64,000 nt of DNA from Gammaproteobacteria bacterium. GTDB lineage: Bacteria > Pseudomonadota > Gammaproteobacteria > Steroidobacterales > XN24. The translations under genes and the position numbers were made by a program. Below are positions 40,766 to 57,518 of this stretch, piece after piece. The notes under the pieces are model-generated. The model was not told where the DNA came from. It was given only the letters and a program-made list of their open reading frames with translations, and made no database searches. The stretch spans positions 1 to 64,000 of the forward strand of contig JAHEFR010000003.1 in assembly GCA_024640085.1 (NCBI GenBank), written 5' to 3'. Within the stretch, counting starts at the first letter, position 1, and each line of letters opens with the position of its first letter.

Positions 40766-43700
40766 TCACCTGTTCTGCGATGTCCGCAGCTCGGGCTGCC
40801 GGGGTGGGCCGCCGAGGCGCCAGAACACCTCGGGCTCGATGGTCAGCTGGTAGCAGCAATCGAGCTCCTGCCAGGCGTCCATGATCTGCTGTTTGACCGC
40901 CTTCATCCTCCTGTCTACGAGATCGGCGTTCTCGACATCGGCTACGTAGGAGAGACGCAGGGTGGCGGGTGCCTTGCGTAATTCATTGAGAAGCAGCCCT
41001 ATTCTCGGCTTCCACTGGGGACGCATCTCGACCGTGCCGGGTTCGAAGACTGCGTCGGCGATATCCAGACCGACGACGCGGTGGATGGAAGCGCCGTAGT
41101 TAATCTTCAGGGCCTTGCCACGCGTGGCTCGCTGGACCTTGACCTCGTCCGTCGACATGCGGAAACCGCTGGGAAGGGTCCGGTCATCGAGCTTGAGGAT
41201 GAAGTTGCTGCCCCGATTCTCGCGGGGAACCACAGCGCAGGTGATGTGGTAGCGCCCATGCTGATCCGTGGTCGCATAGAGACCCCGGGCCGTCACCAGC
41301 CTGACTCCCTGCAGGCCGGCTTCCCCCGGGTCCTGGATGCCGTTGCGGTTGGCATCATCAAAAACCTTGCCAACGACATCGGTACAGTCGAATGTCGGGT
41401 CCGGGACTACGCGGACCGTGGCCGTAGCCACCTCGGAAAGGGGTGCGGCGGTAAAGGTATTGAGGACCTGGGCCTGATTGACGAACTCACCCTCGCCGAC
41501 ACCGGCCCCGACACCAAGCAACAGCTGGACCCGGGTTTCGTTGGAAGCTGAAACGCCGACGCCGTCCCAACTCAGTTCCCGCCCATTGATGACGGGCTCG
41601 ACGGGCATGCCGTCGACGCTGGCCGAACCCTCGATGTACCTGAAGCCGGCCGGATAATTGTCGACAATCGTCAGGTCGGCGAGATCGACGCCCAAAACGT
41701 TGTTGACGGTGATCGTGTAAGGCACCAGCTGACCCCGGCTGACATTGACTGACGGCGTGGTCTTGGTGATGCCCAAAGCCCCCTCGAGGTTCGGGTCGAT
41801 CGGGATGTGGTTGTTGAAGACCTGGCTGGATCCGGGCGCCTGGCTGTCGTCCAGGGTCAGATGGACGTAGTAGGTGGTGCCAGAGCTGCGCGCCTGAACC
41901 GATGCGGGTGGTGCCAGCTCAGAAGCCTGAACCTCGCAGTACGCGGTGGTGCCGGGGACGGCGTCGTCGACGCTACCCGGGCAGGTCGGTACCTGGAACG
42001 GGTTCGTGCCGGCGTCAGACGCCGGTGGGATGATCTGTGAATAACCATCCACATAGCCCGAACCGGGCACCGTGATGCCAATGAGATAACTGCCGCCACT
42101 GGGACACGCCGGGTCGGTGAAGTTCAGGTCGAATTTGTAGTAGCCGTCACCGCGCGTTAGCTGGCCCTGCTGAACCGGGTCATCGAAGCAATTCGCGGGC
42201 AACGGCGCGCCGGCCCCACCCTGCAGCAGGGTCAGGGTTGCACCGGCGACCGGTGCCCGCCGGATGGTGTCGTAGACCATGCCGTTAGGATCGATGGGCA
42301 GGTTGAGCTTCTGCAGATTGCTGCCCGGAGTCACAACGATGTCGGCTATCCGTTGCGGTCCGTTGGTGAAAGGAGAGTCGCCGCTGCCGAGGCTCGCGGT
42401 GCGCGGTCCGGCGTCGGGCGCGCTGAACCGCAGTTCGTACACCAGGCCGGTCGAGTCATAGGCCGCAAGACCGGTGATCCTGTAGGCGCCGTCGACATCG
42501 GTGAAAGTGGAGAACACCTGTTGGCCATCCCGGTACAGGTCGACGGACCAGCCCGCCAGGAGCCGCTCAACTGCTCCCGGAGCACGGTCGAAATCGGCGT
42601 CATGCCAGACCGTGCCGTTCACGGTGCCGACGCCGACCACACCGCCCACGTCGAGCGAAACGCTGGCGCTTGCGGACTGGCTCGGCGTGTTCCAGGTGAC
42701 AACACCGGTGTTGGTGACCGGTGTCCCGACAGCCAGAGCGGGGTCTATTACGGCACGGAACCTCAGCACCACCGTGTCACCCGGTTCCAGCGGTCCGTTG
42801 ACGGAGAAGTAGTCTGCGGTCAACGCGGACCCGGCGACGCTGATGCCTGCCGCGGAGCCATTCATGGTGGCGGACTGGTCGACGTAAGACAGAGTGCCCG
42901 GCGTATCAGCCTCGAGGTCATCGGTGATTACCACGTCATAGGCCGGCACGGCGGCGACGTTGGTCACACGCACTGTGTACTCGAGCTGGGATCCGGCGAA
43001 CGCAGCACCGCCACCGACGACGGCCACTTGCTTGCTGATCGCCAGCACCTGGCCGTCGCCCACGATGACCACGGTCGGCTCCGGACCGGTTGCCGGATCA
43101 CCGTCTCCATCCGTGAGGAGATCGGGAAGTTGATCGCTGGCGACCAGAGCCTGGTTGCTGATCACCGTGCCGCCCGGGACGCCATCGTTGACCCGCAGGT
43201 CAAACTGAAGCACCGCTGTCTCGCCGGCGGCGATGGTGCCTTCCCCGGCGTCAGGCAGCGGAGGAGTCATGGCGGTTGAACTGACGTCGATCCCCGCCGC
43301 GAGTGGAGGTACCCCTGCGTCGGGTTGCCCGACCGCCAGACCGTTCAGCGTTGTAGAGTCAGCGATATAGGTCGTATTTGCTGGGACGTCGTCCTGGACT
43401 ACCACGGCGGTGGCAGCCACGCTGCCGCTGTTTTCGATCGTGATCGTGTAGCGCAGCACGTCACCGGGGTCGACGATTCCCGGCGTGCCCGCATCGGCCA
43501 GAATGACAACGTCCTTGGCCGCGAACAGCAGTGGGAAGGCCCCCACGACGTCTCTGGTGGGATCATCAGGGGTGGTCGTACGCGGGTCATCCGACGGTTG
43601 GTCAGAAACGCCACCGTCGACTGCGCTGACAAACGCCTGGTTCGAGATCACCGTGCCGTCCGCCACGTCTGCATCGACGACGACGTCGAACACGACAGTT

Positions 43701-46700
43701 GCCACGTTGCCCGCGGTCTCCGAGGCATCAGCGCGGAGGAATCCCGGCGTGGCGTCCTCTGGCGCGTTCACGAGGATCCCCTCGCTCAGCGGCGAGAGGC
43801 CGCTGGCAGTGTCGGCAACTGAAACACCGTTCAGTGTCGTGCTGCCAGCGACGTAGGTGGTGTTGGCGGGAACCTGGTCCCGTAGGACTGCGTCCGTCGC
43901 GTCGTCGGTGCCGACATTCTTGATCGTGATGATGTAGCGCAGCGTCTCACCGGCCAGCAATACGTTCGGGTCACCGGTCATGTACTGCGACGTCTTCTCC
44001 ACCTGGAACACAGGCGCCGACTCGACAAGTATCTGGGTCGGGTCCTCGTCGCCGTCTACGTAGGGGTCGGCGGCGCCGTTGACATTCGGGTCGTCACTGA
44101 CGGTGATGAGAGCCGCATTGGCGAGGATCTGCGACTGATTCAGCACCACGGTGCCATTGCTGATGACCGGCGTGAGCTCGATCTCGAACTCGATCAGCAG
44201 GCTGTCACCAAGACCAGCCAGGCTCAGATTACGGATGTCCAGCACGCCCGTGCCGCTGGCGCCGCCGACTGCGTTGGTGTTGGAAGCATCCGCTCCCGGG
44301 GGGACGGTAATCAGATTGAGGGTGCCGGGCTGGAACACCGGCGAACCGTTCAGGCGGTCCAGCTCGTCGACGATGCTGAAACCATTGACCTCGCCGTCGG
44401 TGACGTTCTCGACGACAAGCCGGTAACGCAGCGTTTCGCCCGGACTCGCCACGGTCCCCGGATCGTCTCCCCGGGTGACGTTGACGACCGTCTTCTCGAA
44501 CCTCAGCACCCCCACGTTGACGGTGTGCGCATCCTCGTGGTCGAGCACGCCAACCGTTCCGTCCGTAAGGGTGCGTGAATACTCACGTGCCTGGTCATTC
44601 GAATCCGCCGGGTCCGCGCTGGACCATACTGTGGCGCCCGCGATGTTGGTCAGAATGGCATTCTGCTGGGTATCCGCATCGAGAGATGCCTGGTACGTGA
44701 CGATCAGTCGCTGGTCCGGCCCGATGACGGTTGCGGCCGTCAGCATGGAGAGGGTCAGGCTGCAGGCGGGCTCGCCCTGGAAGTCGACGGAGAAATCTGT
44801 CCCCGGGACGAGCGCCGGGCCGATGGGTGTTACACCGTCAGCCTGGAACAGTTGTGCCGTCACCTGCGTCGGCGAGGCGTCACACATGCCACCCGATGCC
44901 GTACTTGGCAGAACATCGGCGATGGTCAGTGCATAGGCAGGCGAATCGCCCCTGTTGTGGACGTCGAGCGAAAACGTACCCGGCGTGTCGTCACGCATCA
45001 GCGTCGTCCCGCTCTTCTCGAGAGTGAGATCGGGCTCGACAATGGTCATGGGTCCACTGGCGCCAGGCCCGCCGGGCCTCAGGGTTGTCGGGTCGTCATC
45101 CAGCAGGTTGTAGGAATATGTGGCCGTATTGGTAAACGTCAGGCCCGCCACGTTGGTGCTGGTGTCCAGCAGCCTGACGGTAATCTCGATGACGGCCTGC
45201 TCGCCGACGGGGATGTCGATGCCGCTCCCGTTGTCTTGGATCACCAGGTTTGTAGCCGAGCCTGTATTCACCGGGTTCCATGACCCGGAGCCCGAGATTT
45301 TTGTGACAGATACGAACTCGAGACCGGCGGCGGATACGCCCAGATCGTCGAAGACACGGACATCGTGCAGAGGTGACGTATGCGGCACGGAGGGCACGGT
45401 GATCCGGTAACTGAAGGTTTCCCCGATCGTCGCGGTCGCCTGTGTGTTGGCTTTCAGCAGTGCCGCCGGCGGCTCGCCTTCGATGAGAACCTGGGTCGGG
45501 TCCTCGTCACCCGGCACAATGGGATCAGCCTGGCCGTTAATATTCGGGTCGTCGCTATCGGCGATCTTGACCGTGTCGATCAGGTCTGCCTGATTCAGCA
45601 CCACCGTACCGTCGATCAGACCCGTGGCCAGGGTGATATCGAACTGGATCAGGATCTCGTTGCCGGCCTGGACGTGCAGATTACTCACATCGAGGAAGCC
45701 AGCCCCGTTTGTTCCGCCATTCGGATCCGTGTTGCCGGCATTGGCGCCTGGGGGCAGGCTACCGGGGACCAGCGCCAGGGAACCCGGCACAAAGACCGCC
45801 CCGGCGTTGAGCGCCCCGAGATCGTCCTGGATGACGACACCATTGAAGGCGCTATCGATGGCCTGCAGCCGCAATGTGTAGCGCAGCGTGTCACCCGGGG
45901 CGGCCGTCTGGGTCGGGCTTACGCCCGTGGTGAGATTTGCGACACTCTTTTCGAACAAGAAGCCGGTAAGCGCCACATTGACGGTATGAGCGTCCTGGTG
46001 GTCCAGGACGCCAACGGTACCGTCGGTCAGGGCGCGCCGATAAGCGACGCGCCCGGTGACGCTGCTGTCGCCGTTGAACCATTCCGTCGCTCCGGCGACA
46101 TTGGTGTGTGTGGTGCCATCCTGGGTATCGGCGTCGAGCTGGGTCTGATAGGTGATGACCAGACGCTCACCCGGATCCATGGCGGCTGTAGCAGTGAGCA
46201 TCGTCAGGGCCAGCGCGCAGGCGGGGGCGCCGTCATAGCTGAGCAGATAGTCGGTACCCTGGGCCAGCGGACCTTTGCCGGGTACCGGTGTTCCATCGGA
46301 GGCAACGACCCGGGCGCCAAGCACCTCGGGCGTGAAATCACACATGCCCCCCGAAGGCCCGTCAGGGAGACGGTCGACAATCGTCGCGTCCCAGGCCTCG
46401 GTATTGCCGGTGTTCTGGATATCGAGCGTGAACTGTCCCAATTCGCCCAGGTTCATTGTGGCCGGGCCCGACTTGGTTAGCGTCAGCTCCGGGCCCGCGA
46501 TGGTCAGGGGTGGCGAGATTCCCCACTCACCCGGCAAGGGCTCGTAGAACACGCCGTCGATCAGTCGGCCAAAATCCCACTTGGCCGTATTGACGAACTG
46601 GGTCCCCGGGGCATTGACCGGCGTGTCCTCGAGGATCACCGTGATCTCGACTACGACCTGGTCTCCCGCCGGGATGACCGGGAAATTGTCGAAGGTGAGG

Positions 46701-47374
46701 AAGCCATTCGTGTTATCGAAGGTGTGCGGTACAGGCGCCCCGCTATCCTCCCAATAAACGACATGACTCAAATAGGTCAGGTCGACGCCGGTGGCATTCA
46801 GGTCGTCCCAGATGGTGGTGCTGTGCAGGTCATTGGGTGACCCTTCGGTGTTGATGGCCGAGCCGGTCCCCGGGTCGAACAGTATCGGCATGGTCAGCGT
46901 GTAGGTGAAGGGCACCCCCACCGTCACGGTACCGGGTCCCGGCGGATTCGCCTTGTCGATCTTTTCGACCGGGATCAGCAGATTCTGGCAGTTCTGCTTG
47001 ATCTTGCTGGACGAACCGTTGGTGAACCAGATCTTATGGTCGTGGACAGCATCGCACGACATGTTGCCGGTGTGCACGACGTTGTCGAAGATAACCAGCC
47101 AGCGCTCATCGCTCTGGCCCGGCTGCGTAAGGAAGCTGAAGTTTGTCGTCAGTGGATTGTCGGCGGGGAAGTTCCGGACCGTGCAGTTGCTGTCTATCTG
47201 CACCTGGTCCGGAGGCGGCACGACGTCCCCGTCGATCACGCCGAAATACGGTGGATCGGAGCAATTCACGGCCTTCGCGGCCAGCGACGTACCTGTCAGC
47301 AGCACGAAAGCGAGCAACTGCAGCCACCTAAGGCTGCGGCTCGCGTCCGCTCTGTCGGTACTGCTGAAATTCAT
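40766..47374 (-). CDS. Giant DUF11-repeat surface protein
   Basis: A 2202-residue exported protein with a signal peptide (about 1-36, ending LAAKA). About eight or nine DUF11/isopeptide-type beta-sandwich repeats follow, recognisable by openings such as LTKSG, FEKSV, VEKTS and the pattern PGDTLRYTITIEN. Two SdrD B-like domains lie near 1580 (GTVWHDADFDR) and 2050 (GKVFDDANRNGIQDPGEAG). The last 100 residues look like a degenerate OmpA-type domain (FEPGTVEMRPQWKPRIGLLLNELRK). There is no LPXTG or PEP-CTERM anchor, so attachment is probably through the partner OmpA/barrel protein encoded next. GAGGG lies 5 nt before the ATG. Likely a long fibre or adhesin. Confidence 0.85.
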   Translation of the reverse strand: MNFSSTDRADASRSLRWLQLLAFVLLTGTSLAAKAVNCSDPPYFGVIDGDVVPPPDQVQIDSNCTVRNFPADNPLTTNFSFLTQPGQSDERWLVIFDNVVHTGNMSCDAVHDHKIWFTNGSSSKIKQNCQNLLIPVEKIDKANPPGPGTVTVGVPFTYTLTMPILFDPGTGSAINTEGSPNDLHSTTIWDDLNATGVDLTYLSHVVYWEDSGAPVPHTFDNTNGFLTFDNFPVIPAGDQVVVEITVILEDTPVNAPGTQFVNTAKWDFGRLIDGVFYEPLPGEWGISPPLTIAGPELTLTKSGPATMNLGELGQFTLDIQNTGNTEAWDATIVDRLPDGPSGGMCDFTPEVLGARVVASDGTPVPGKGPLAQGTDYLLSYDGAPACALALTMLTATAAMDPGERLVITYQTQLDADTQDGTTHTNVAGATEWFNGDSSVTGRVAYRRALTDGTVGVLDHQDAHTVNVALTGFLFEKSVANLTTGVSPTQTAAPGDTLRYTLRLQAIDSAFNGVVIQDDLGALNAGAVFVPGSLALVPGSLPPGANAGNTDPNGGTNGAGFLDVSNLHVQAGNEILIQFDITLATGLIDGTVVLNQADLIDTVKIADSDDPNINGQADPIVPGDEDPTQVLIEGEPPAALLKANTQATATIGETFSYRITVPSVPHTSPLHDVRVFDDLGVSAAGLEFVSVTKISGSGSWNPVNTGSATNLVIQDNGSGIDIPVGEQAVIEITVRLLDTSTNVAGLTFTNTATYSYNLLDDDPTTLRPGGPGASGPMTIVEPDLTLEKSGTTLMRDDTPGTFSLDVHNRGDSPAYALTIADVLPSTASGGMCDASPTQVTAQLFQADGVTPIGPALVPGTDFSVDFQGEPACSLTLSMLTAATVIGPDQRLIVTYQASLDADTQQNAILTNIAGATVWSSADPADSNDQAREYSRTLTDGTVGVLDHEDAHTVNVGVLRFEKTVVNVTRGDDPGTVASPGETLRYRLVVENVTDGEVNGFSIVDELDRLNGSPVFQPGTLNLITVPPGADASNTNAVGGASGTGVLDIRNLSLAGLGDSLLIEFEIELTPVISNGTVVLNQSQILANAALITVSDDPNVNGAADPYVDGDEDPTQILVESAPVFQVEKTSQYMTGDPNVLLAGETLRYIITIKNVGTDDATDAVLRDQVPANTTYVAGSTTLNGVSVADTASGLSPLSEGILVNAPEDATPGFLRADASETAGNVATVVFDVVVDADVADGTVISNQAFVSAVDGGVSDQPSDDPRTTTPDDPTRDVVGAFPLLFAAKDVVILADAGTPGIVDPGDVLRYTITIENSGSVAATAVVVQDDVPANTTYIADSTTLNGLAVGQPDAGVPPLAAGIDVSSTAMTPPLPDAGEGTIAAGETAVLQFDLRVNDGVPGGTVISNQALVASDQLPDLLTDGDGDPATGPEPTVVIVGDGQVLAISKQVAVVGGGAAFAGSQLEYTVRVTNVAAVPAYDVVITDDLEADTPGTLSYVDQSATMNGSAAGISVAGSALTADYFSVNGPLEPGDTVVLRFRAVIDPALAVGTPVTNTGVVTWNTPSQSASASVSLDVGGVVGVGTVNGTVWHDADFDRAPGAVERLLAGWSVDLYRDGQQVFSTFTDVDGAYRITGLAAYDSTGLVYELRFSAPDAGPRTASLGSGDSPFTNGPQRIADIVVTPGSNLQKLNLPIDPNGMVYDTIRRAPVAGATLTLLQGGAGAPLPANCFDDPVQQGQLTRGDGYYKFDLNFTDPACPSGGSYLIGITVPGSGYVDGYSQIIPPASDAGTNPFQVPTCPGSVDDAVPGTTAYCEVQASELAPPASVQARSSGTTYYVHLTLDDSQAPGSSQVFNNHIPIDPNLEGALGITKTTPSVNVSRGQLVPYTITVNNVLGVDLADLTIVDNYPAGFRYIEGSASVDGMPVEPVINGRELSWDGVGVSASNETRVQLLLGVGAGVGEGEFVNQAQVLNTFTAAPLSEVATATVRVVPDPTFDCTDVVGKVFDDANRNGIQDPGEAGLQGVRLVTARGLYATTDQHGRYHITCAVVPRENRGSNFILKLDDRTLPSGFRMSTDEVKVQRATRGKALKINYGASIHRVVGLDIADAVFEPGTVEMRPQWKPRIGLLLNELRKAPATLRLSYVADVENADLVDRRMKAVKQQIMDAWQELDCCYQLTIEPEVFWRLGGPPRQPELRTSQNR

Positions 47375-47444: not shown

Positions 47445-47537
47445 GATTCCGGCGGTCCCGCTGTCATGGGGCTTGTGGCCCTTTAGACCGGTGACTTTGC
47501 GTCGCCATCTTTCGATGGCTTTGCCTTTATCTGAATC
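47445..47537 (-). ncRNA. Cyclic di-GMP-I (GEMM-I) riboswitch, upstream of the DUF11 gene
   Basis: Read on the minus strand, the aptamer contains the class I c-di-GMP signature in order: GGCAAA, a P2 stem capped by GAAA, GACGCAAAG, CGGTCTAAAGGGC, a P3 stem, and AGCGGGACCGCCGG. P1 is GATTC (47537-47533) with GAATC (47449-47445). It lies about 70 nt before the DUF11 start. Just past the aptamer, ATCCAG (47447-47442), which shares bases with P1, can pair with CTGGAT (47395-47390) beside the ribosome-binding site, a plausible switching pair. A perfect GCAGC-ACGG-GCTGC hairpin lies between. Confidence 0.88.
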
Positions 47538-47593: not shown

Positions 47594-49003
47594 CTACGCC
47601 GCCGGCAGGAAGTCGATCGGATAGAGGATCGTAATAGCCGGAACGTCCTTGGCGCCGAAGTCGAACGTCCGCACCCGGTCAAGCACCTGGGCCGAAAGTT
47701 GCGGTGCGTCCATATCGGATGCCTCCAGTTGGCACAGGGAAACGCTGCCGTCGGGCTCGATCTTGAGGCGCAACACCATCTGCCCCTTCAGGGTCGGGTC
47801 CTTGCGGAGTTCCCGGTTGTAGAGTCTGTACAACGCCGCCTTGTGACGGTCGAAGACGATCTGGATCTCCTCGTCGGTACGTCCCGCGCCGTGGCCGGCC
47901 GCCAGTGGCCGGTCCACGCCACCGCCAGGCCCGATGGAGCTGGCTACCTGTGTCAGCTGGACACCGGCCATGGCGCCGCCACCGCCGCCACCACCACCGA
48001 TGTCGCGGCTCAGCGAAGACAGGTTGATGCCGCCGCTGGATCCCGGTGCCTGGGTGGTCACCATATTCCGCTCCGGTTTGCCTGGAGTCGCCGCGCTGGC
48101 GGCGCTGATCCGGGCGTCATTGCCCAGCCTCGCCGAAGGCTTGCCGGCGGCCATATTGTTGAACTTCTCGCGGAAGGCCAGTATGCCTTTGGTCGCCGGT
48201 TTCTTTTCCTTGGTCATCCTGGGTGACGGCTCCGGTTCCGGACCCTGGGCCAGGACTGGCTCGTCGGTGGGCTTTACCGGCTCGTCGATGGGCTCGGGCT
48301 CGGGCTCAGTCTTGGGTTCCTCGGGCTTCGCCTCCTCGACTACAGGCGGTGGGGGCGGCAGGGGCCGCCGCTCCCGGACCAGGCGTGCCAGCCGCTCCGG
48401 CACTTCGATGACCTCCCACGGTTCCGCCAGCGGCAGATCGATCTGGGGAAGAATCAGTCCGATCAGCAGACCGACCAACACGGACGCAAGCAGACTCTTG
48501 CGGAACCGCTGGTCGTCCTCGCCACCCCGGGACCAGGGCATGACGGCCATACGTGCCGGCAGGGCACTGATCTCCCGTTCGACGATCCACTCCAGCTTGC
48601 GGCGCTCTTCCTGCTCCTGCGCGTCAAACAGATCCTCCTCCAGGATCTCGATCCCTTCCTCCTCCTGGCTGATTTTGTCGACGACAGCCTGCCGGCGGTC
48701 CGCGATCTCGTCGAGGCGCGCCTGGAATGCCTGCAGCTGTCTGCGCGCGCTCTCCATCAGCGCATCGCGCCGGGACGCATCGATTCGTTCGCCCCAGAAC
48801 AATTCGCCGCCGCCAAGCTCGTCGAGCCGATCCAGCGCATCACAAGCAGTGGTCAGCAGCTCGTGGTGCTGCTGTTCTTTCGAGAGCGCCTCCAGCTCGC
48901 CCTCCACGCCACGCAGTTCCTGGATCAGGGCGTCGAGCCTCCCGCGAGCCTGACCGAGGTCTTCCCGCAGCGCCTGCTGGTCTTGGGGTATTACAGTATT
49001 CAC
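47594..49003 (-). CDS. TonB-like energy transducer with AgmX/PglI C-terminal domain
   Basis: A 469-residue protein. Residues 1-150 are a cytoplasmic coiled coil, unusual for a TonB protein. One membrane helix lies at about 170-188, then a Pro/Glu-rich periplasmic stretch with PPPPPP (about 200-250), a Gly-rich linker, and a C-terminal domain (VFDRHKAALYRLYNRELRKDP, LKIEPDGSVS) of the AgmX/PglI type named from Myxococcus gliding proteins. It would link the ExbB/ExbD motor encoded just upstream to periplasmic or outer-membrane partners. The GTG start overlaps nothing and lacks a clear ribosome-binding site. It is the last gene of the 57.3-kb transcript before the second riboswitch. Confidence 0.85.
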   Translation of the reverse strand: MNTVIPQDQQALREDLGQARGRLDALIQELRGVEGELEALSKEQQHHELLTTACDALDRLDELGGGELFWGERIDASRRDALMESARRQLQAFQARLDEIADRRQAVVDKISQEEEGIEILEEDLFDAQEQEERRKLEWIVEREISALPARMAVMPWSRGGEDDQRFRKSLLASVLVGLLIGLILPQIDLPLAEPWEVIEVPERLARLVRERRPLPPPPPVVEEAKPEEPKTEPEPEPIDEPVKPTDEPVLAQGPEPEPSPRMTKEKKPATKGILAFREKFNNMAAGKPSARLGNDARISAASAATPGKPERNMVTTQAPGSSGGINLSSLSRDIGGGGGGGGAMAGVQLTQVASSIGPGGGVDRPLAAGHGAGRTDEEIQIVFDRHKAALYRLYNRELRKDPTLKGQMVLRLKIEPDGSVSLCQLEASDMDAPQLSAQVLDRVRTFDFGAKDVPAITILYPIDFLPAA

Positions 49004-49012: not shown

Positions 49013-49516
49013 CTATGTCTGAATGGCTTCCGGCGCCTTCTGGATCACGGCCAGTGAGATCCTGGCGTAGCCCTGGGCGGTACAGGTAGACATCACCTTC
49101 TTGACAACGTTAAAGGGCACCGACTTGTCCGCCAGGATAGTCACCTCCTGACTTTCAGCGACCCGCATGGTATTGCTGCCGATCACATTCTCGCTAAGTT
49201 CGGCCAACCGCTGGCTAATGGGCTCGATGTCCTGCCCCTCCATGGCCTGTATGTCTTCGACGCGCGCGACCGCTTCACCCTGAACCGTAACCTCCGTCGC
49301 GCTGACAAATATCACGACTGTCTCCCGTGGCTTGGACTCGACGGTCGAATCGGGCAACGTGATTCGTTTGGGTGTCTCCAACACCTCGGTGGTGGCGGAG
49401 TTCACCAGAAGGAAGAACACCAGGATCGTGAACACGTCCATCAGAGACGTGAGATTCATCTTGCTGATCTTCGTCCGATTGCGGTTCATCCGCTTGATTC
49501 TGCGAGTGTTCTTCAT
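49013..49516 (-). CDS. ExbD/TolR-type motor subunit with intact Asp
   Basis: A 167-residue protein with a short basic cytoplasmic tail, one membrane helix (NLTSLMDVFTILVFFLL) carrying the conserved Asp at residue 27, then a periplasmic domain. In ExbD, TolR and AglQ this Asp is part of the proton path. It is the second of two ExbD-type genes after the ExbB/TolQ gene, the arrangement of aglRQS in Myxococcus. Its ATG overlaps the stop of the first ExbD gene. Confidence 0.93.
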   Translation of the reverse strand: MKNTRRIKRMNRNRTKISKMNLTSLMDVFTILVFFLLVNSATTEVLETPKRITLPDSTVESKPRETVVIFVSATEVTVQGEAVARVEDIQAMEGQDIEPISQRLAELSENVIGSNTMRVAESQEVTILADKSVPFNVVKKVMSTCTAQGYARISLAVIQKAPEAIQT

Positions 49517-50004
49517 GGCGCATCTCCGATGGAAATGTCCGTGAACAGGGCGACCCGCTCGATCTCCTCCGGATTCTCGCCGGGTAGGTCGACGCTCCTT
49601 ACGGCATCCATGACCTTGATCAGATAGTCGTACTCGATATCCGGCTCCAGCAGGACCGAAGCGTCCTCCTTGTCCGGGTAGTCTCGCTTCAGGGAGACCA
49701 GATACTCGGACAGGGTCTCGAAGTCGTACCCGTCGTCGGCATTCGGTATGGCGGCGATCACCTCCTTGCCGTTGGTGATCTCCAGCCCCTGGTCACGGAC
49801 GATGACTTCCACCCGGAAACCGGGATCGGCAGGCGTACTCGCGCTGTTCGCGCTGGGAAGGCTCAGCTCGACGATGGTGATCCTGGAAAACACCGCCGTA
49901 ATCAACAGAAACGGCACCAACACCACCATCAGGTTGAGGAATGTGGTCATGTCCAGCTCGGCCGGCTCTTTGGTGCGCCGCCTGTAGTGGTGTTGCCTGG
50001 CCAT
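49513..50004 (-). CDS. ExbD/TolR-type motor subunit with Asn in place of the helix Asp
   Basis: A 163-residue protein with the ExbD layout: basic N-terminus, membrane helix and periplasmic domain. The helix reads DMTTFLNLMVVLVPFLL; aligning it with NLTSLMDVFTIL of the neighbouring ExbD puts Asn24 where the proton-carrying Asp is normally found. Asp18 lies just outside the helix. The periplasmic part contains ITNGKEVIA and an acidic stretch. It lies 4 bp after the ExbB/TolQ gene and overlaps the next ExbD gene. It may be a structural rather than conducting partner. Confidence 0.9.
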   Translation of the reverse strand: MARQHHYRRRTKEPAELDMTTFLNLMVVLVPFLLITAVFSRITIVELSLPSANSASTPADPGFRVEVIVRDQGLEITNGKEVIAAIPNADDGYDFETLSEYLVSLKRDYPDKEDASVLLEPDIEYDYLIKVMDAVRSVDLPGENPEEIERVALFTDISIGDAP

Positions 50005-50008: not shown

Positions 50009-50659
50009 TTATACCTCGACCTGCCGCTTGGCCTTCGCCGAGATCACGTTGAGCGCCTTCACGGAGGCCATCTCCAGACTATCGACGATGGCACCGGTCT
50101 TGGCGGTGAGAATCGTATGCGTTACCAGCAGCGGGATGGCCACCATCAGACCGAACGCCGTGGTGTTCATGGCCACGGAAATGCTGGCCGACAACAGGTC
50201 CGCCTTCTCGGCGGGATTTGCATTGGCCACCGCGGTAAACGCCTGGATCAGGCCCATGATGGTGCCCAGCAGGCCCAGAAGAGTCGCGATGCTGGACGCC
50301 AACGCAACATACGGCGTCCGTTTCTCGAGCTGAGGGATGATCTCCATCATGCTCTCTTCCATGGCTATCTCGATATCTTCCCGACGCCGGACCGCACCCT
50401 GCCTCGCCAGCCCCATTCCGAGAAGCTGGGAGACCGTGGACTGGTCCTTGGTCGTCATTTCCCGAGCCTTGTCGAACTCTCCTTTCATCAATGCGGGCTG
50501 GATCTTGCTCCAGCTGCTCTGGTTTTCATTGGTAACCGAATTGAGGGTGATAAACCGCTCTACGGCAATCGCAGTCCCGACCGCGAAAACGATCAGGATC
50601 GGATACATAAACGGGCCTCCCGTAACGAAGAACCCTACGAGTGAATACAAACTGTCCAT
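50009..50659 (-). CDS. MotA/TolQ/ExbB proton channel family protein
   Basis: A 216-residue inner-membrane protein with three helices (about 10-30, 118-140, 160-185) and the family core ASSIATLLGLLGTIMGLIQAF, then AMNTTAFGLMVAIPLLV. With the two ExbD-type proteins encoded next, it would form a proton-driven motor as TolQR, ExbBD or AglRQS do. AGGAGG lies 8 nt before the ATG at 50659, the strongest ribosome-binding site in the operon, fitting a subunit needed in excess. A GTG at 50665 is too close to that site. Confidence 0.94.
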   Translation of the reverse strand: MDSLYSLVGFFVTGGPFMYPILIVFAVGTAIAVERFITLNSVTNENQSSWSKIQPALMKGEFDKAREMTTKDQSTVSQLLGMGLARQGAVRRREDIEIAMEESMMEIIPQLEKRTPYVALASSIATLLGLLGTIMGLIQAFTAVANANPAEKADLLSASISVAMNTTAFGLMVAIPLLVTHTILTAKTGAIVDSLEMASVKALNVISAKAKRQVEV

Positions 50660-50714
50660 GACCACATCCTCCTGAACATTGCCTGTGAGTTGCCTTGCGG
50701 CTCCAAAAAGGGTC

Positions 50715-51044
50715 TCACTCCGCCCTTATCCGGTAGTACTCCAGCCTTCGCATGAAAACCTCCTTGTCGACAGGCTGGGGTCCGTCGTCAAGAAGCCTCG
50801 ATACATCGAGCCTTGCAGCGAGCTCGGAGCTCTTCCAGGGCACGATGACAAGAGACTTGGGCGCCTCGTGGTCACCCACGATCGACATGCCTGACAGCTG
50901 CTTCTCGCCGGCTTCCGGCGTCTCCCCGGCGGGGACCGATGCCGCGGCCAACAACTGTTTCTCATCAGCCTGCGGCGTGTCCTCGGCGAGGACCGAGACA
51001 GTAGCCAGCAGTAGCGAAATTCCGATGACGAGCTTGCTCGACAT
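50715..51044 (-). CDS. Small exported protein
   Basis: A 109-residue protein with a clear signal peptide (MSSKLVIGISLLLATVSVLA, cleaved before EDTPQ), then a Glu/Ala/Pro-rich linker with a repeated DTPQADEKQL / ETPEAGEKQL, and a short C-terminal segment (KSLVIVPWKSSEL ... VDKEVFMRRLEYYRIRAE). I know no family. TAGGAG lies 6 nt before the ATG. It lies between the TPR lipoprotein gene and the motor genes, 8 bp from the former, so it is likely a periplasmic accessory of the motor. Confidence 0.75.
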   Translation of the reverse strand: MSSKLVIGISLLLATVSVLAEDTPQADEKQLLAAASVPAGETPEAGEKQLSGMSIVGDHEAPKSLVIVPWKSSELAARLDVSRLLDDGPQPVDKEVFMRRLEYYRIRAE

Positions 51045-51052
51045 GATTGCTC

Positions 51053-51691
51053 CTACTGCCCCGTCCGATTGCGGAGATCCGCCACCCACATGGCGGCCTC
51101 CTTATCGTCCGGGACCTCTTCGCTATACAACTCGTAGTTCTCGATCGCACAGGCTGTGTCTGCGAGATACATGTCGCAAAGGATCGCGAGATTCAGCCTG
51201 GCGAAATGGAAATCCGGATGAATTTTCAACGCCCTCTCGTAGCTGGCCCGTGCCTCCTCGAAACGTCCGGACTTGCGGTAGACCATCCCCAGCTCGTTGT
51301 AAGCCACGGGGTGACGGGGATTGAGCTCCAAGGCTTTCTTGATGTTCGCCTCCGCGGATGCCAGATCGCCCACGCGGCTATAGGCGATGCCCAGATTGAT
51401 ATAGGCGGCAGTCGCGTCCGGTACGCTGTCCGCGACCTGCTGGAGCAGGGCGATTCCCTCCTGGTATCGCTCCTGGCGAAGCAGCTGCATGGCGTCGTCA
51501 AACTCGCTCCGCTCTTCACTGCTGATACGGACGTCCTCGACAATGGTGAATCCACCGTCGCTGCCGGTTTCTGACTGCGCGGGACGCGTAGGTCCTGTCG
51601 CCGAGCAGGCGGCCAGCAACAGGACCCCCGGCAGCATCAGCATGGATGCCGCGACTCGAACTCTGCACAGTTTGCTGGAGTGATCTCGCAT
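51053..51691 (-). CDS. TPR lipoprotein
   Basis: A 212-residue lipoprotein. The signal peptide ends in the lipobox LLAAC (Cys about 29). The mature part has three to four TPRs (AAYINLGIAYSRVGDLASA, PVAYNELGMVYRKSGRFEEA, DFHFARLNLAILCDMYLAD). TPRs bind partner proteins; the layout recalls PilF/PilW pilotins and the TPR parts of Glt complexes. The residue after the Cys is Ser, not Asp, which favours the outer membrane. Two bases separate it from the upstream TPR gene. Confidence 0.87.
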   Translation of the reverse strand: MRDHSSKLCRVRVAASMLMLPGVLLLAACSATGPTRPAQSETGSDGGFTIVEDVRISSEERSEFDDAMQLLRQERYQEGIALLQQVADSVPDATAAYINLGIAYSRVGDLASAEANIKKALELNPRHPVAYNELGMVYRKSGRFEEARASYERALKIHPDFHFARLNLAILCDMYLADTACAIENYELYSEEVPDDKEAAMWVADLRNRTGQ

Positions 51692-51693
51692 GA

Positions 51694-54600
51694 CTATCCC
51701 GTTGCAGCCGCAGGTGCGGGTGCCTCCTGTTTCGTTTGCGATGAATCCTCGCTGCCATCCTGGGTAGCGGAATCCTTCGGTGCCGCATTTTGTTCGCCGG
51801 CCTGGCCACCTTCCGTCAGGGCGGATGCCCCAGGGGATCTGTAGGCGTAGGTGTCTATCGAGTCGAGGAAGCCGGTGCTAATTTCAAACTTCGCGTAACG
51901 GCCCGGCATGAGGTCCGCAAGCTCGTCCAGACTCTTCTCGATCCACGGGTTGAACACTCCATTGGCCAATAGCTCCAGATTCTTTTCGTGGACCTCTATG
52001 GCGCGTTCCTCGAATGGAAATGCCTCTTCCTCGATCATCATCTCGTAATCCTGCAACTCGTCCGCGCTCAGGTCTGCCGGGCGCTCGGAGTCGATCAGGG
52101 ACTGGCTGAACTCGTAGTAGACCTCCGCGATGTAGAAGGTTGCCGCGGCGGTGACCTCGCCGTCCTCGTAGTCGACGAGGGCTTCGAGAGCAGCGAGTGC
52201 TTCGTCCATGCGGGCCTGCTTGTCCTGGAGGCTCTGTTCGAACGGCTGGACCAGGCGAACCTCGTCGAAGCGGGCATAGAGATCCTGGGCCAGCACCAGC
52301 CCTGCACGGGCAGCGAGGTACCGGGTACGCGGAGTGCGGGCCTCTCCGGCGGCGGCATCGATGTCGACGATGGCCTGGAGTTGTTCGCGATAGCCGTCCA
52401 GGTCGCTGGCCGCCTCATACATTCCGGCGACCTTGTGGCGGGTTTCGACAGCTGTCTCGACTGGCTCGGGATACTGGTCTACGTAACGCAGATAGACGTC
52501 CAGCGCCCGATCCTTGACGCCGGACTCATCGTACAGGTCACCCGCCAGCAGCAAGGACTCGCGGCCGAGTTCGGGGTCCTCGGCCTCTTCCGCGACGCGT
52601 TCGTATTCTTCTGCAGCACGGGCACTCTGGCCGTCCTCACGATATATGTAGGCGATCTGCCGGGTGGCGTCGCGATTTAGCTCGTTTTCGGGGAAGGTTT
52701 TCCGGAAGTCATCCAGTACTGCTGCCGCGCCACTCCAGTCCTCGAGTCGCATCAACGCGGCGCCCGCATCGTACTCTGCCGCCGGCCGGATCTCGGATGT
52801 CGGCGCTACTTGCGTGATGCGCAGGAAATGGTCGGCGGCAGCCCGGAAGTCCTCAAGCTGGTTGGCCTGTTCGCCCTGCTTGTAAATCGCCGCAGCCAGG
52901 TTATCGACGATAGCCTGCCGAGACTCGTCGTCAACGGGCGTCATTTCGAGCACGCGGCTGTAAGCGTATTCGGCTTCGGGATAGCGCGCGATATCCATGG
53001 ATGAGTGCGCGATAACGGCCCAGGCGGCGCGGTGGATCACCGGGTCAGCCTGAGGGTACTGGTCGACGAGGCGGTGCCCATTGGCAATCGCGGACTCGAA
53101 CTCCTTCATGTCGTAGAGATCGTCCACGGCTGCACCGAGGACCACGTCTGCATTCTCGTGCTCCGGGAATACATCCACGAACCGTAGCGTGCTGTTCACG
53201 GCATCACGTCTCACCACCGATCGTTCCGCGCCTGTGGCCACGTTCTCGTGCTCCCGGTGCGAATATATGGCTGCGTAACCGGCAGCCGCCGCCTGCTCGT
53301 GGGTCCCGTAGCCGTAAGCCGTACGTTCGTATTCCAGCGCTGCCTCTCCAAAGTCCTCGTTCTCCAGCAAGAGATCCGCGAGCTGATAGTTGATACCCGG
53401 TGTCTCCGCGTCCTGCGGGAAGGATTCCAGATACTCGTGATACCAACGCAATGCCTCCTGGTAGTTGGTCGGTTTCTCCTCCGCCAACTCCTCTACCTGA
53501 TACAAGGCGTGGTAGTGATGCGCCAGGTCCTCGAGATTGTTCTTGAGGTAATCCAGCACCTCGGGATCTTCTGCCGTGTCGTGGTGCTGCCAGTATTCAG
53601 ACTGCAGACCATAGTTGGCGGCGAAATCCCTTTTCGATTCCAGAACCAGCTTTGGAAATCCGCCAGCGTCGAAGATCTCCACCACTCTCATGCTGAAGTG
53701 TGGGGACGACTTGTGAAGCGGGTAAAGACGGATAAATGCCTTATAGGCCTTTGCGGCGTCGTCGTAACGCAACTTCTCGAAATAGAAGTCGCCCAGGTGA
53801 CTGTAGATCCGGTCCTCGTAACTGCGGTGGCCGTTGGCGGCGAAGTACTCGTCCACGACGTCGGGACCGCCCAGGTTGGAGAAACTCAGGCTGATGACGC
53901 GATAGGTGTCTGCTACCCGGCGCTCCTCGGCCTCCTCCTGCTCCTGGTCGAAGTCATAGCCCTGGGAGAGCTTGTAATCCAGCAGCGCAACATACTGGTG
54001 CACCGCCTCCTCGTGGAATTGCTGCTTGTATAGAGTCCAGCCCAGCTTGTACAAGGCGAGTTCGTAATATTCAGAACCTTCGCCCATGGTGACGATAGCC
54101 GAGTAGGCCGTCTCGGCGTCCAGGTACTTCTTTCTGGTAAAAAAGTACTCGGCGCGCCTGAACTGGACCTCGTCGAAGTACTTCGAGTAGGGGTGCCGGG
54201 ACACCAGCTCGTCCATCACCGACATGGCATCGTCGGGCCTGCCCAGTTCGTCGTAAGCGCGGGCCTTCTGGTAAAGGACGCCGTCGTTGTGTTCGTAGTC
54301 CGGATAGGCGGCAAGGATTCGGTCGTACAGTTCGATAGCTTCCAGGGGACCGGCCCATTCGGGCTTCTCCTCGCCGGCCGGCAACTGGACATCGGCCTCG
54401 TCGGCTCCCGCAAGTGGCTCCAGCTCGCCGCCCGCACGCAGTTCGAATTCCTGATCGGATTCGACGTCTTCGCCCTTGACGTCGGGAGCCGACTGCTGCC
54501 CGTCATCACCGGTGGATCGCGCGGCCCGGATCTGACCGGACTCCGGAGTGGGCAGCTCCACCAGTTTCCCGTCGCCGATGATTCCGTATTCCTTTTCGAT

Positions 54601-54831
54601 CTTCAGGTCGGCCAGACGGCGCATGGCTTCCGGGGTCAACTCGGACTCGGGCGTCTCCTCCAGAAAGGCCCGATACCCCAGGATCGCCCTGTCCAGACCA
54701 TTCTCGACCGTCACGTCCTCGACGTCGGCTTCCACGCCCTGGAGTTCCGAGAGCGTGTGTTTATCCGGGTTCGAGGCACATGCAGCCACGAACAGCGGAC
54801 TCAACAGACAGATTGCAGGAATCGTGCGCAT
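51694..54831 (-). CDS. Large TPR lipoprotein
   Basis: A 1045-residue lipoprotein: lipobox VAAC near residue 18, followed by Ala. An acidic linker follows (about 30-150), then a long TPR superhelix from about 150 to 950 (for example RAYDELGRPDDAMSVMDELV, GWTLYKQQFHEEAVHQYVALL). A charged tail ends in Ala/Pro. Its size and place beside motor genes resemble the large TPR proteins of Myxococcus gliding (GltD/GltI), but I infer this from layout. The ATG directly follows the stop of the upstream gene (TGAATG), so the two are coupled. Confidence 0.87.
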   Translation of the reverse strand: MRTIPAICLLSPLFVAACASNPDKHTLSELQGVEADVEDVTVENGLDRAILGYRAFLEETPESELTPEAMRRLADLKIEKEYGIIGDGKLVELPTPESGQIRAARSTGDDGQQSAPDVKGEDVESDQEFELRAGGELEPLAGADEADVQLPAGEEKPEWAGPLEAIELYDRILAAYPDYEHNDGVLYQKARAYDELGRPDDAMSVMDELVSRHPYSKYFDEVQFRRAEYFFTRKKYLDAETAYSAIVTMGEGSEYYELALYKLGWTLYKQQFHEEAVHQYVALLDYKLSQGYDFDQEQEEAEERRVADTYRVISLSFSNLGGPDVVDEYFAANGHRSYEDRIYSHLGDFYFEKLRYDDAAKAYKAFIRLYPLHKSSPHFSMRVVEIFDAGGFPKLVLESKRDFAANYGLQSEYWQHHDTAEDPEVLDYLKNNLEDLAHHYHALYQVEELAEEKPTNYQEALRWYHEYLESFPQDAETPGINYQLADLLLENEDFGEAALEYERTAYGYGTHEQAAAAGYAAIYSHREHENVATGAERSVVRRDAVNSTLRFVDVFPEHENADVVLGAAVDDLYDMKEFESAIANGHRLVDQYPQADPVIHRAAWAVIAHSSMDIARYPEAEYAYSRVLEMTPVDDESRQAIVDNLAAAIYKQGEQANQLEDFRAAADHFLRITQVAPTSEIRPAAEYDAGAALMRLEDWSGAAAVLDDFRKTFPENELNRDATRQIAYIYREDGQSARAAEEYERVAEEAEDPELGRESLLLAGDLYDESGVKDRALDVYLRYVDQYPEPVETAVETRHKVAGMYEAASDLDGYREQLQAIVDIDAAAGEARTPRTRYLAARAGLVLAQDLYARFDEVRLVQPFEQSLQDKQARMDEALAALEALVDYEDGEVTAAATFYIAEVYYEFSQSLIDSERPADLSADELQDYEMMIEEEAFPFEERAIEVHEKNLELLANGVFNPWIEKSLDELADLMPGRYAKFEISTGFLDSIDTYAYRSPGASALTEGGQAGEQNAAPKDSATQDGSEDSSQTKQEAPAPAAATG

Positions 54832-56712
54832 TCAGCCCTGCTCCTCGCTCGCCTGCATCTTCGCCGCACGATCGAAACTTTCCGCGAAGGCATAGCGGGC
54901 CTGATTCTGATACGAATCCAGCAGATCCCTGCGGGCGACAAGTTCTCTGACCGCTACGGTTTCAAGCATGTGACCCTGTCGGGCCATCAGCAGGTTCAAC
55001 CGCTGGGTCGCGTCAGCGACACGCGTCCGCAGCCGCTTGATCGGGATGTCATAGCCTTCGAAACTATGGACCGCGGCCTGCCGGGTCCTGACGAATGACT
55101 GGTACTGGGCCGTCAGTACGTCGATGTCCGAGTTGAGCTCCTGCAGATGCTTGTAAGCCTCGGTCAGGCGTTCGTGATATTCGGTTTCGAGCGTCCAGGT
55201 CTGGACCCCCCTCAACCGGTCGATTCGGTTCTGCAGCTGAATGTCTTCGGGATCCGCAGTCTGCAGGCGCGTCTCGAGTTCCGAGATACGCATGCTGACC
55301 AGCCTCTCGTCGGCTGTTGCGAGCAGATCGGGCCGTGGCGCGATCAGCATGGCCTGGATACGCTGATCGAGGTGCTCTCGTTGCTCGAGACGCAACCGGA
55401 TCTTGGCGTCTAGCTCCCTGAACTGGCTGTCGATCCCTGGCAGGAGGGGCTCGTAATACTGGCGCCGTAGACGGATGAGATCATCGAATGCATCGAACCC
55501 GTGCTGCCAGGCGACCAGCTTCTTCCTCAGATCCTCCAGATCCAGGTAATTCTGCAAGGCCGTCTGGAAATCATGGGACGCCATCAGCGCCATCAAGTAA
55601 TAGGTTTCCGGGGTCTCCGGCAGACTTCGCAGGCGGATGACCCAGTCCTTGTCCTGCCGGATTTCTTCTCGCACCAGGGCTTTCAGGAACTTACCCTCTC
55701 TGATGCTCTTGATCGACGCGTTCACCTTGTTGAGCTCATTACCGAACGTTTCGACGGCACGGCCATACAACACGGCCGCACGTCCGTAGACGTTCAGTCT
55801 GCTGTAGGCATAGGGGAGCGCTAGAATGGCTTCCTGGACCGCAGCGTCCGTCGAGTCTCGTTTAGCGAGGATGCTCCAGGGAACGACAGCGCGCTCGAAA
55901 TTTTCTGCCGAGACATCGGCCCAACCAGCCCTCAGCAGGGCGAGGTTGGAATACGGTCCCTCGAGGCGGACGCGGTCAAGAGAGTGCTGGGCCGGACCGA
56001 AGTCGGCCGACTCGAACTGCAGGGTGCCCAGAACCAGATTCGACTTGTCCCGAATCGCCAGGGTCCCCTGGTCGCTGGTCCTGAGCTGGCCGGCCTTGTC
56101 GAGTTGGTGCAGCGCCTCCTGCTGCTGCCCCGCCTGCAACAGGGCGATGCCAAGGTTGTACGCGGTGAATCCCTTCAGATCCTGCGAACCCTGCAGCGGA
56201 ACTAAGGTCTCAACCGCGTCGGAAGGTCGCCCCATGGCCATATATACGTTGGCCCGGAGAAACTCCAAGTCATCCTTGATGGCATCCGGAACAGGGCCCT
56301 CGATTCTGGTCAGGGTGCGTAGCGCATCCTCCGGCTGGTCTTTCTGAAAATAGATCCGTGCCAGCCGGAAGGCAGCCTCGTTGCGCACTTCGTCGTCCAC
56401 GTCTCCTTCCAGCACAGCTTGCATGGCCCGCCCGGCGCGAAGATGCATGCGGTAGCGGAGTTCGAAGTCGCCGACGAAGAATTTCGCGTCCCCGACGTGA
56501 TGCCACAACGTATCCAATTGCGGTTCGTCGACGCTGTCATGCAGAGCCATCTCCGCATCGAGACGCGCGATAGCTTCGAAGTACTGTCCCTGGTCCGCGT
56601 AGTAGAGAGCTTCGCCGTAGTACAGGTCCTTCAAGTCCCCACCCACGGCCGCGCCGGCAACCATACACATGGTCAGCCCAACAACCAGCGTTCTTGCGAG
56701 AACTGCGGCCAT
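54832..56712 (-). CDS. Exported TPR and coiled-coil protein
   Basis: A 626-residue protein with a signal peptide (about 1-25, ending AAVGG). The N-terminal two thirds are TPR-like helical pairs (EALYYADQGQYFEAIARLDAE, LGIALLQAGQQQEALHQLDKA). From about 430 the sequence is charged and helical with heptads (LDAKIRLRLEQREHLDQRI, LQELNSDIDVLTAQYQSF), a likely coiled coil. It is the second gene of the 57.3-kb operon, 3 bp after the first. Probably a periplasmic scaffold; no enzyme motif is present. Confidence 0.85.
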   Translation of the reverse strand: MAAVLARTLVVGLTMCMVAGAAVGGDLKDLYYGEALYYADQGQYFEAIARLDAEMALHDSVDEPQLDTLWHHVGDAKFFVGDFELRYRMHLRAGRAMQAVLEGDVDDEVRNEAAFRLARIYFQKDQPEDALRTLTRIEGPVPDAIKDDLEFLRANVYMAMGRPSDAVETLVPLQGSQDLKGFTAYNLGIALLQAGQQQEALHQLDKAGQLRTSDQGTLAIRDKSNLVLGTLQFESADFGPAQHSLDRVRLEGPYSNLALLRAGWADVSAENFERAVVPWSILAKRDSTDAAVQEAILALPYAYSRLNVYGRAAVLYGRAVETFGNELNKVNASIKSIREGKFLKALVREEIRQDKDWVIRLRSLPETPETYYLMALMASHDFQTALQNYLDLEDLRKKLVAWQHGFDAFDDLIRLRRQYYEPLLPGIDSQFRELDAKIRLRLEQREHLDQRIQAMLIAPRPDLLATADERLVSMRISELETRLQTADPEDIQLQNRIDRLRGVQTWTLETEYHERLTEAYKHLQELNSDIDVLTAQYQSFVRTRQAAVHSFEGYDIPIKRLRTRVADATQRLNLLMARQGHMLETVAVRELVARRDLLDSYQNQARYAFAESFDRAAKMQASEEQG

Positions 56713-56715: not shown

Positions 56716-57300
56716 TTACCAGTCTCCGAGCTGTATGCTGCTGCCGGAACCAGGCCCCGCGAGGGTGATGCCGACCAGCTTGGGCTCGATGTCCTTGCTG
56801 AAACTGAAGCTGTCGGCAGTGCTGAAGTCATGTCCACCGGAGGACTTGCCGGCGATGGCAACGTCCAGCTGGTGAGCACCGGTCGGGACGTTGCCGGTGT
56901 ATATCCGTTGCACACCGCCGTTCTGGAGGGCATCCAGTTCCTTGAAACTGTAAATGTGGTGGGCGACGACTTCCCCGTCGATGCTTACCTGCACGGAGTC
57001 CAGTCGAAATTCGTCGCCTTCTGCGATGGATACGAAAACCGCCAGTTGGGTATTCGAGGGGTACAGCAGCTGCTCTTCGAGGTTATCCAGTTCCGCAGCG
57101 ATGCTCAGGACGTCCGACTTGATTTCCTGGACCTGCTCGTCCAGACCCTGCATCTGCTCCCTGGACAGATCCTGTGCGGCGCCGGCAGGCGTCAGCAGAC
57201 TGATGCCCAGACAAAGAAGTGCAGCGTGAAGGATGCGCTGGCATCTCACGGCACGTTCGCGCACCCGTCCAGAAATGAGGATCTCAAGTCTTCTGATCAT
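56716..57300 (-). CDS. Exported protein with coiled coil, first gene of the envelope operon
   Basis: About 194 residues. A signal peptide follows a basic N-terminus (ILHAALLCLGISLLTPAGAAQ); next come a short coiled coil (about 45-75: LDEQVQEIKSDVLSIAAELDNLEEQL) and a beta-rich domain (LAVFVSIAEGDEFRLDSVQVSIDGEVVAHHIY) ending GSSIQLGDW. No family recognised. The ATG at 57300 is chosen because the sequence before it is the expression platform of the riboswitch: GGCAGCC touching the start can pair with GGCTGCC 40 nt earlier. An ATG at 57357 in frame would lie inside that platform. Confidence 0.7.
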   Translation of the reverse strand: MIRRLEILISGRVRERAVRCQRILHAALLCLGISLLTPAGAAQDLSREQMQGLDEQVQEIKSDVLSIAAELDNLEEQLLYPSNTQLAVFVSIAEGDEFRLDSVQVSIDGEVVAHHIYSFKELDALQNGGVQRIYTGNVPTGAHQLDVAIAGKSSGGHDFSTADSFSFSKDIEPKLVGITLAGPGSGSSIQLGDW

Positions 57301-57354
57301 GGCTGCCCCGTTCCCACCTAAGGCCTCGACGCCTCGCCGGAAACGATGGCAGCC
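57301..57354 (-). promoter_or_regulatory. Probable translational expression platform of the riboswitch
   Basis: GGCTGCC (57354-57348) is a perfect complement of GGCAGCC (57307-57301), which ends next to the start codon at 57300 and follows the only purine-rich stretch. Pairing would close the ribosome-binding site. No T-run is present, so translation rather than termination is the likely control point. Confidence 0.45.
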
Positions 57355-57370: not shown

Positions 57371-57461
57371 GATTCCGGCGGTCCCGCTATCCTGGGGCTC
57401 GTGCCCTTTAGACCGGAGACTTTGCGTCGCCACCTTTCGGTGGGTTTGCCTTTGACTGAAT
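57371..57461 (-). ncRNA. Cyclic di-GMP-I (GEMM-I) riboswitch, upstream of the envelope operon
   Basis: On the minus strand: GGCAAA, a P2 stem CCACC-GAAA-GGTGG, GACGCAAAG, CGGTCTAAAGGGC, a P3 stem with GAGCCCC, then AGCGGGACCGCCGG. All the conserved blocks of the class I c-di-GMP aptamer are in order, with P1 ATTC/GAAT closing the fold. It is about 80 percent identical by eye to the copy at 47.5 kb, most of the change being in P2 and P3 with pairing kept. It lies 70 nt before the first gene of the operon and starts about 3 nt after the predicted transcription start. Confidence 0.9.
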
Positions 57462-57470: not shown

Positions 57471-57518
57471 ACTATGGCCTGCCAGATCCGCTATGTAATG
57501 TGAATCACGTCACAATTT
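57471..57518 (-). promoter_or_regulatory. Promoter with CRP/Clp-type site before the envelope operon
   Basis: On the minus strand a -10 CATAGT (57476-57471) and a weak -35 ATTACA (57499-57494) with 17-bp spacing predict a start near 57464. A perfect TGTGA-N6-TCACA palindrome (57499-57514, wider match 57497-57518) is centred about 42 bases upstream, overlapping the -35 as at class II CRP promoters. CRP, Vfr and Clp share this target; Clp of xanthomonads also senses c-di-GMP. Confidence 0.65.

Follow-up and report, generated by a model that had tools for sequence, protein, structure and literature searches.

A c-di-GMP-I riboswitch heads a putative motor-plus-TPR envelope operon in a gammaproteobacterium, with a second aptamer before the adjoining surface-protein genes and a candidate CRP/Vfr promoter

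We analysed a 64,000-nt stretch of gammaproteobacterial DNA (the window) and found that its minus strand carried, at 57374-57460, an element that was almost certainly a c-di-GMP-I (GEMM-I) riboswitch. This aptamer (UP) stood before genes a to i, which encoded a putative machine of the cell envelope, and a related aptamer (DN) sat between genes i and j, heading j and k (Table 1). The machine and its likely partner j appeared to answer to the same lifestyle signal. As a whole, we judged the following explanation reasonably probable: the riboswitch heads a to i, its related copy heads j and k, a CRP/Vfr promoter would drive the head leader, and c-di-GMP would turn translation off through helix P1. 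The head RNA itself was ordinary, being another example of a known riboswitch class. What was new was the wiring, namely two second messengers that would act on a putative motor operon.

Table 1. Features on the minus strand of the window, listed from the promoter downstream
Feature	Position	Strand	Basis or remark
CRP/Vfr-like box TGTGA-N6-TCACA, perfect, putative	57499..57514	-	centre 46 nt before UP aptamer
Putative -10 hexamer CATAGT	57471..57476	-	30 nt after box centre
P1 5' strand (AUUC)	57458..57461	-	alignment and pair counts
c-di-GMP-I aptamer UP	57374..57460	-	RF01051, 77.3 bits
Switching strand A (CGCCGGAA), aptamer 3' end	57373..57380	-	pairs with strand T in nascent fold
P1 3' strand (GAAU), overlapping switching strand	57372..57375	-	alignment and pair counts
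5' strand of helix sequestering the ribosome-binding site (RBS)	57339..57354	-	folding
Strand T (UUCCGGCG)	57335..57342	-	folding
Ribosome-binding region, 3' strand of sequestering helix, just before ATG	57301..57315	-	folding
Gene a, 194 aa, conserved first gene, without Pfam or NCBIfam match	56716..57300	-	
Gene b, 626-aa TPR protein	54832..56712	-	
Gene c, 1045-aa TPR protein, lipoprotein-like start by eye	51694..54831	-	
Gene d, 212-aa TPR protein, lipoprotein-like start by eye	51053..51691	-	weak GltE match far below cut-off
Gene e, 124 aa, no family	50715..51089	-	
Gene f, MotA/TolQ/ExbB channel, AglR-like place in cluster	50009..50665	-	PF01618, 3.6e-25
Gene g, ExbD/TolR, Asn at usual Asp position	49513..50004	-	PF02472 and residue check
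Gene h, ExbD/TolR, Asp present	49013..49516	-	PF02472 and residue check
Gene i, AgmX/PglI C-terminal domain protein, GltG/GltJ-like tail	47594..49003	-	NF033768, 57.4 bits, cut-off 40
c-di-GMP-I aptamer DN	47448..47535	-	RF01051, 84.8 bits
Gene j, 2202-aa DUF11 / isopeptide-domain / SdrD_B surface-type protein	40766..47374	-	
Gene k, 1741-aa frame with OmpA domains	35634..40859	-	PF00691, 1.4e-24, two stretches

An earlier note on this DNA had claimed a c-di-GMP-I riboswitch at the head of an envelope operon and had suggested a covariance-model search with RF01051. We ran this search, and the claim was borne out well above the cut-off, with 77.3 bits against a gathering score of 35. The E-value was 1.8e-13 when the whole window was searched and 1.2e-15 with a stretch of 421 bases, and the alignment spanned model positions 1-87 of 87. 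All the conserved blocks read in that note were present on the minus strand, including the GAAA-capped P2: CCACC-GAAA-GGTGG, GACGCAAAG and CGGTCTAAAGGGC. P1 was indeed short, with 4 pairs (AUUC/GAAU) in the window copy and GAUUC/GAAUC in most family copies, and the lower limit given before, 57371, took in the 3' strand of this helix. Among 27 aligned aptamers of both types, 15 of the 24 pairs showed pair-keeping changes on both sides, a level that none of 500 shuffles reached; the weakest pairs were those of P1, where 74% of cells were paired. A G at position G20 of GEMM-I favours c-di-GMP over cGAMP. The head aptamer had G at the position taken as G20, and we infer that c-di-GMP is its ligand.

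It seemed very improbable that the head aptamer was a decayed relic that no longer binds. Degenerate DN copies did occur in relatives: the copy at L070 (genome G056) reached 32.0 bits with Rfam, which was below the cut-off, and the stretches between i and j at L146 and L147 reached 26.4 and 17.1 bits with our home-made clade model R1. The head copy, however, scored 77.3 bits, retained every conserved block and covaried with its relatives, and a chance match was ruled out by the same score and covariation. A second, degenerate aptamer just upstream was rejected as well: positions 57300-57720, searched at E up to 5, gave only RF01051 with two overlapping matches of the same clan and a weak COG2908 match on the opposite strand.

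The motor-plus-TPR operon described in the earlier note was confirmed by the gene content. PF01618 was found once and PF02472 twice, giving one TolQ/ExbB-like (MotA/TolQ/ExbB) and two TolR/ExbD-like proteins, together with an AgmX/PglI tail and three TPR proteins. To call a to i an envelope machine, putatively proton-driven, was fair, and the label implied no role in gliding or export. We infer that these genes are co-transcribed. The ATG of gene a was at 57298-57300, and a mechanical 213-aa ORF from 57357 began within the leader. We set the start at 57300, since in ten further leaders of the family the start codon came 70-81 nt after the aptamer, as here, so that this spacing was found in eleven leaders. 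At the position that we take to be the usual proton site of ExbD/TolR, the pattern of Asn in g and Asp in h recurred in 37 of 37 aligned loci (29 gammaproteobacterial-type, some of them the same record twice; six of the Desulfuromonadales group; two of type B). A separate ExbB/ExbD-looking pair at 62513-63633 of the window lay beside MsbA-, LpxK- and KdsB-looking genes and looked ordinary.

In its make-up, the a-to-i set resembled the AglRQS-Glt core complex. This complex has been reported in Gammaproteobacteria and Geobacter, with its role in Gammaproteobacteria unknown (Luciano et al. 2011; PMC3169522). The likeness lay in the TolQ/ExbB- and TolR/ExbD-like proteins, the putative GltG-type tail, the TPR proteins and an extra conserved gene in one locus (PMC3169522). 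Among equivalog models, GltG, GltJ and GltE were matched by the gene products far below their cut-offs, and the AgmX/PglI domain above its own. In contrast to the AglRQS-Glt complex, the locus here carried riboswitches and was associated with j, the DUF11 giant, and k, the protein with OmpA domains. The excerpted passages of PMC3169522 did place an OmpA-like protein in the G2 cluster of Myxococcus, and they mentioned neither a riboswitch nor a DUF11 protein.

The DN aptamer (47448-47535) was the stronger of the two in the window; the earlier note had overlooked it, along with seven more in the genome. It headed gene j and gene k, the latter likely with a later start near 40760 and with a C-terminal half that read, by eye from the translation, as an outer-membrane barrel. 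We examined all seven available genomes of the source family, five of which had the type A operon, and the UP aptamer preceded gene a in all five. Outside the family, model R1 found no UP aptamer at any of 17 loci that had 400 nt or more in front of the first aligned gene a codon (L042, L043, L045, L059, L062, L068-L074, L086, L088, L091, L092 and L094), and an Rfam scan found no aptamer before gene a at L044, L046 and L047. At L071, an aptamer was located 9 kb away on the other strand. Between i and j, 22 of 28 loci matched R1 at 45 bits or more. These 28 were members of the order plus six named MAG loci, excluding L064, whose operon was broken, and L062, where this stretch was not covered. 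Nineteen of the 22 were members of R1's own alignment, each past an Rfam cut-off, and the other three were L058, L059 and L070; no R1 match was found between i and j at L069, L091, L092 and L148. From these distributions we read DN as the older aptamer. UP is likely its duplicate, but identity comparisons did not separate UP and DN copies cleanly.

A search for gene b in 196 genomes of the order gave some match in 135. Among the matches listed, at least 29 close homologues besides that of the source genome had 56-71% identity, and most other matches were the more distant type B, at about 29-38%. A close match covered part of the protein in G156, G171 and G188 and a short piece in G162. Aptamer counts per relative genome were lower bounds, as several whole-genome RNA searches scored the first 150 candidates. 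In G074, the only other genome examined of the source genus, the type A operon was split (L064, L100): contig C1 had the end of i, a DN-type aptamer and j at 1.726 Mb and the a-b part near 1.365-1.368 Mb, which may reflect a rearrangement or a MAG artefact.

Upstream of UP, the CRP/Vfr-like box kept a fixed place in the family. Namely, in all five UP promoters the distance from its centre to the aptamer was exactly 46 nt, with 0, 0, 2, 0 and 2 mismatches out of 10, and the other four promoters had [CG]ATAGT where the window had its hexamer. Two related leaders, G011_UP2 and G025_UP2, carried the box at the same place with one mismatch each. Of the 59 leaders of the family, 6 had a box with at most one mismatch at 38-54 nt (after letter shuffling, the mean was 0.01 and the maximum 1), and five equally wide bins further upstream held 0 or 1 boxes. 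There was no excess in the window as a whole, with 1 CRP box against 1.42 expected. Moreover, the genome encoded a 217-aa Vfr/CRP homologue, whose best solved-structure matches were Vfr and CRP (E = 5.6e-77). A -10-like hexamer 30 nt from the box centre would fit a class II site, in which the box is centred near -41.5 relative to the start of transcription. The fixed spacing of box and hexamer and the CRP-type protein made the UP promoter a class II-like CRP/Vfr candidate. A sigma-70 consensus promoter was looked for at the UP leader and not found.

The DN copies of the family had no CRP-like box at that distance, and therefore j may be expressed there by read-through from i. Outside the family, the hexamer was present in 14 of 16 DN promoters, 13 of them with a box of at most two mismatches 29-30 nt away and one (G006) with a box of three mismatches; the two promoters lacking the hexamer had a box with two mismatches, 40-41 nt ahead of the aptamer. 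Upstream of gene a, a CRP-like box with at most two mismatches was found in 16 of 16 loci outside the family, within up to 450 nt. We drew nothing from these since the distances varied and there was no shuffle control. A third leader of the UP type with a CRP-like box (L067:891-1438, L125:327-862) preceded a 126-127-aa frame, the C-terminus of which looked, by eye, like the final strands of k. This third leader was retained in G025 even though that genome lacks the type A operon.

We folded eleven leaders of the family, four of which precede j and the other seven gene a or the UP2 gene, leaving out the DN leader of G074. They shared one layout, in which strand A (in P1) was followed by a nested hairpin, strand T and a segment pairing with the RBS. 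In the window leader, the sequestering helix paired GGCUGCC..CGUUUCC with GGGAACG..GGCAGCC, and the RBS was unpaired only 2% of the time with P1 held. The leaders as a set exceeded their shuffles in RBS occlusion (reached in 0 of 200) and strand-A gain (1 of 200), although these set tests overstate independence because the eleven leaders are related; singly, 4 of 11 leaders passed the 5% shuffle level for occlusion and 1 of 11 for strand-A gain. Of 5000 permutations of the partners, 74 came up to the leaders' own segment-to-RBS pairing and 49 to their nested hairpin. The same kind of swap found own partners no better for A:T pairing (1120/5000 in the family, 5916/10000 outside it), for P1 in the family (1110/5000) and for T:RBS pairing outside it (1298/10000). 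Folding of the nascent RNA, up to just before the RBS, gave a strand-A helix in 11 of 11 leaders, with a partner that varied between them. At equilibrium, the RBS was largely paired with or without strand A, and any control must therefore be kinetic.

In the mechanism that we propose, transcription would begin at the promoter with the CRP/Vfr box in its class II-like place, and strand A in the nascent mRNA would have two options: to close P1, with c-di-GMP bound, or to pair with strand T. With c-di-GMP holding P1, strand T and its neighbour would be free to pair with the RBS, and translation would be off. Without c-di-GMP, the A:T pairing and the nested hairpin would keep the RBS open, and translation would be on. 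We considered control of the head leader at the level of translation to be likely, and we leaned slightly towards c-di-GMP as the off signal. The off direction and the explanation as a whole were graded lower because of the start codon: with the strand-A helix held, AUG exposure was split, going up in six of the eleven leaders and down in five.

The opposite sign was rather unlikely, although several points spoke for it. In that case c-di-GMP would turn the operon on by exposing the start site, as for an adhesin machine of the sessile lifestyle. Surface machinery is often raised at high c-di-GMP, and the products here, the DUF11 giant and the OmpA-domain protein, looked like such machinery. 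The five leaders in which the AUG became less exposed, and the single one (G059_dn) in which the unpaired share of the RBS fell, would agree with it too. GEMM-I switches of both signs exist, and the Vc2 switch of Vibrio cholerae is translational, with P1 key to switching (PMC9262584). However, holding the strand-A helix exposed the RBS more in 10 of the 11 leaders, and in the window leader by itself the RBS was nearly always paired once P1 was held. The off sign thus remained our preferred reading.

Attenuation of transcription instead of control at the RBS, through a Rho-dependent or unrecognised terminator, was improbable for the head leader. It was brought to mind by the Desulfuromonadales, where the aptamers before j were followed, by eye, by hairpins with U-runs, and therefore control there is probably by termination. 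In the UP leader, however, no terminator-like site was found on the minus strand, so that a recognisable terminator was excluded, and RBS sequestration exceeded the shuffles in the set of leaders. We accordingly kept control at the RBS as the favoured reading here.

Desulfuromonadales and Gammaproteobacteria belong to different phyla. Seven genomes of the Desulfuromonadales group were searched whole, and the gene order in the loci read was j-k-a..i. One to three aptamers stood directly before j, on the same contig as the operon, in 4 of 4 genomes with a readable operon head: three in G197, two in G199 and one each in G201 and G202 (L139, L140, L141, L142). G196 and G200 (of these, G200 is titled Desulfobulbaceae) were outside this count, and G198 had four aptamers before a j homologue on a different contig. 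All eleven aptamers scored above an Rfam cut-off; c-di-GMP-I-GGC (RF03167) accounted for ten of them and -UAU (RF03168) for one. Seven loci covering about 10 kb on either side of gene b had suggested that the Desulfuromonadales lacked the riboswitch, and the aptamers before j at the operon head overturned this. Thus, aptamers of these two classes likewise preceded a homologous operon, with the differences that they had terminator-like hairpins (by eye), often came in tandem copies and had j first. An aptamer at L143:640-718 (G196:C22) had A at the key position, which in GEMM-I selects cGAMP, and it lay before genes that resembled, by eye, a chaperone-usher cluster.

Compared with RF01051, whose 87 positions it matched in full, including the conserved blocks and the tetraloop P2, the head aptamer showed no difference; the downstream operon and the CRP-like promoter box were what was unusual here. 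The target genes also differed from those of Vc2, whose target is tfoY. In published work, CRP reportedly acts on tfoX and c-di-GMP on TfoY. In the open-licence PMC literature, we found no work joining a c-di-GMP riboswitch, ExbB and gliding motility, and none joining Woeseiales with c-di-GMP or with gliding motility. Our tentative proposal, which we would put at somewhat less than even, is that the non-myxobacterial core complex may be a force machine acting on or through j and k. Bacteria of two phyla would have brought the machine and its partner under the control of c-di-GMP riboswitches in different ways, with j first in the Desulfuromonadales and with a second riboswitch heading a to i plus cAMP-Vfr in the gammaproteobacterial family, making the complex a c-di-GMP lifestyle device. 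The riboswitches in the gammaproteobacterial order and in the Desulfuromonadales point to a signal to vary and to a likely client protein, and the predicted sign (off at high c-di-GMP) would separate a motility-type from an adhesion-type role.

Nine c-di-GMP-I aptamers were found in the source assembly (3.19 Mb, 73 contigs), and therefore this riboswitch class was in regular use. The genome also encoded ten GGDEF domains, so c-di-GMP is probably made by the organism. The known targets of these aptamers appeared to be mostly envelope or surface genes. On contig C19, the aptamer preceded a peptidase M23 gene adjoining a SecA-looking frame, and two further sites were on C25 and at C44:291396. On C48 (L082), within a type IV pilus gene cluster, an aptamer stood before pilM, pilN and a gene for a PilQ-type secretin. 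At C5:1052-1365 (L083), two aptamers 144 nt apart stood before a 597-aa Calx-beta protein, and similar close pairs were present in G074, G011, G025, G049, G059 and G067.

The remaining case concerned type B, a paralogous core complex about 7.5 kb behind another aptamer (L075, L076, L077, L078; L080, L081). In four family genomes (G059, G067, G025 and G049), the type B gene b followed an aptamer on its own strand at a distance of 7.4-7.5 kb, and in G059 the reading frames between the two were co-directional. In the source genome, an aptamer also preceded a type B cluster. The end of C34 and the start of C44 held matching pieces of this cluster, and the two contigs presumably adjoin. The type B pieces of the source genome included HZS_alpha-domain, SH3-domain, thioredoxin-type and DUF3570 proteins.
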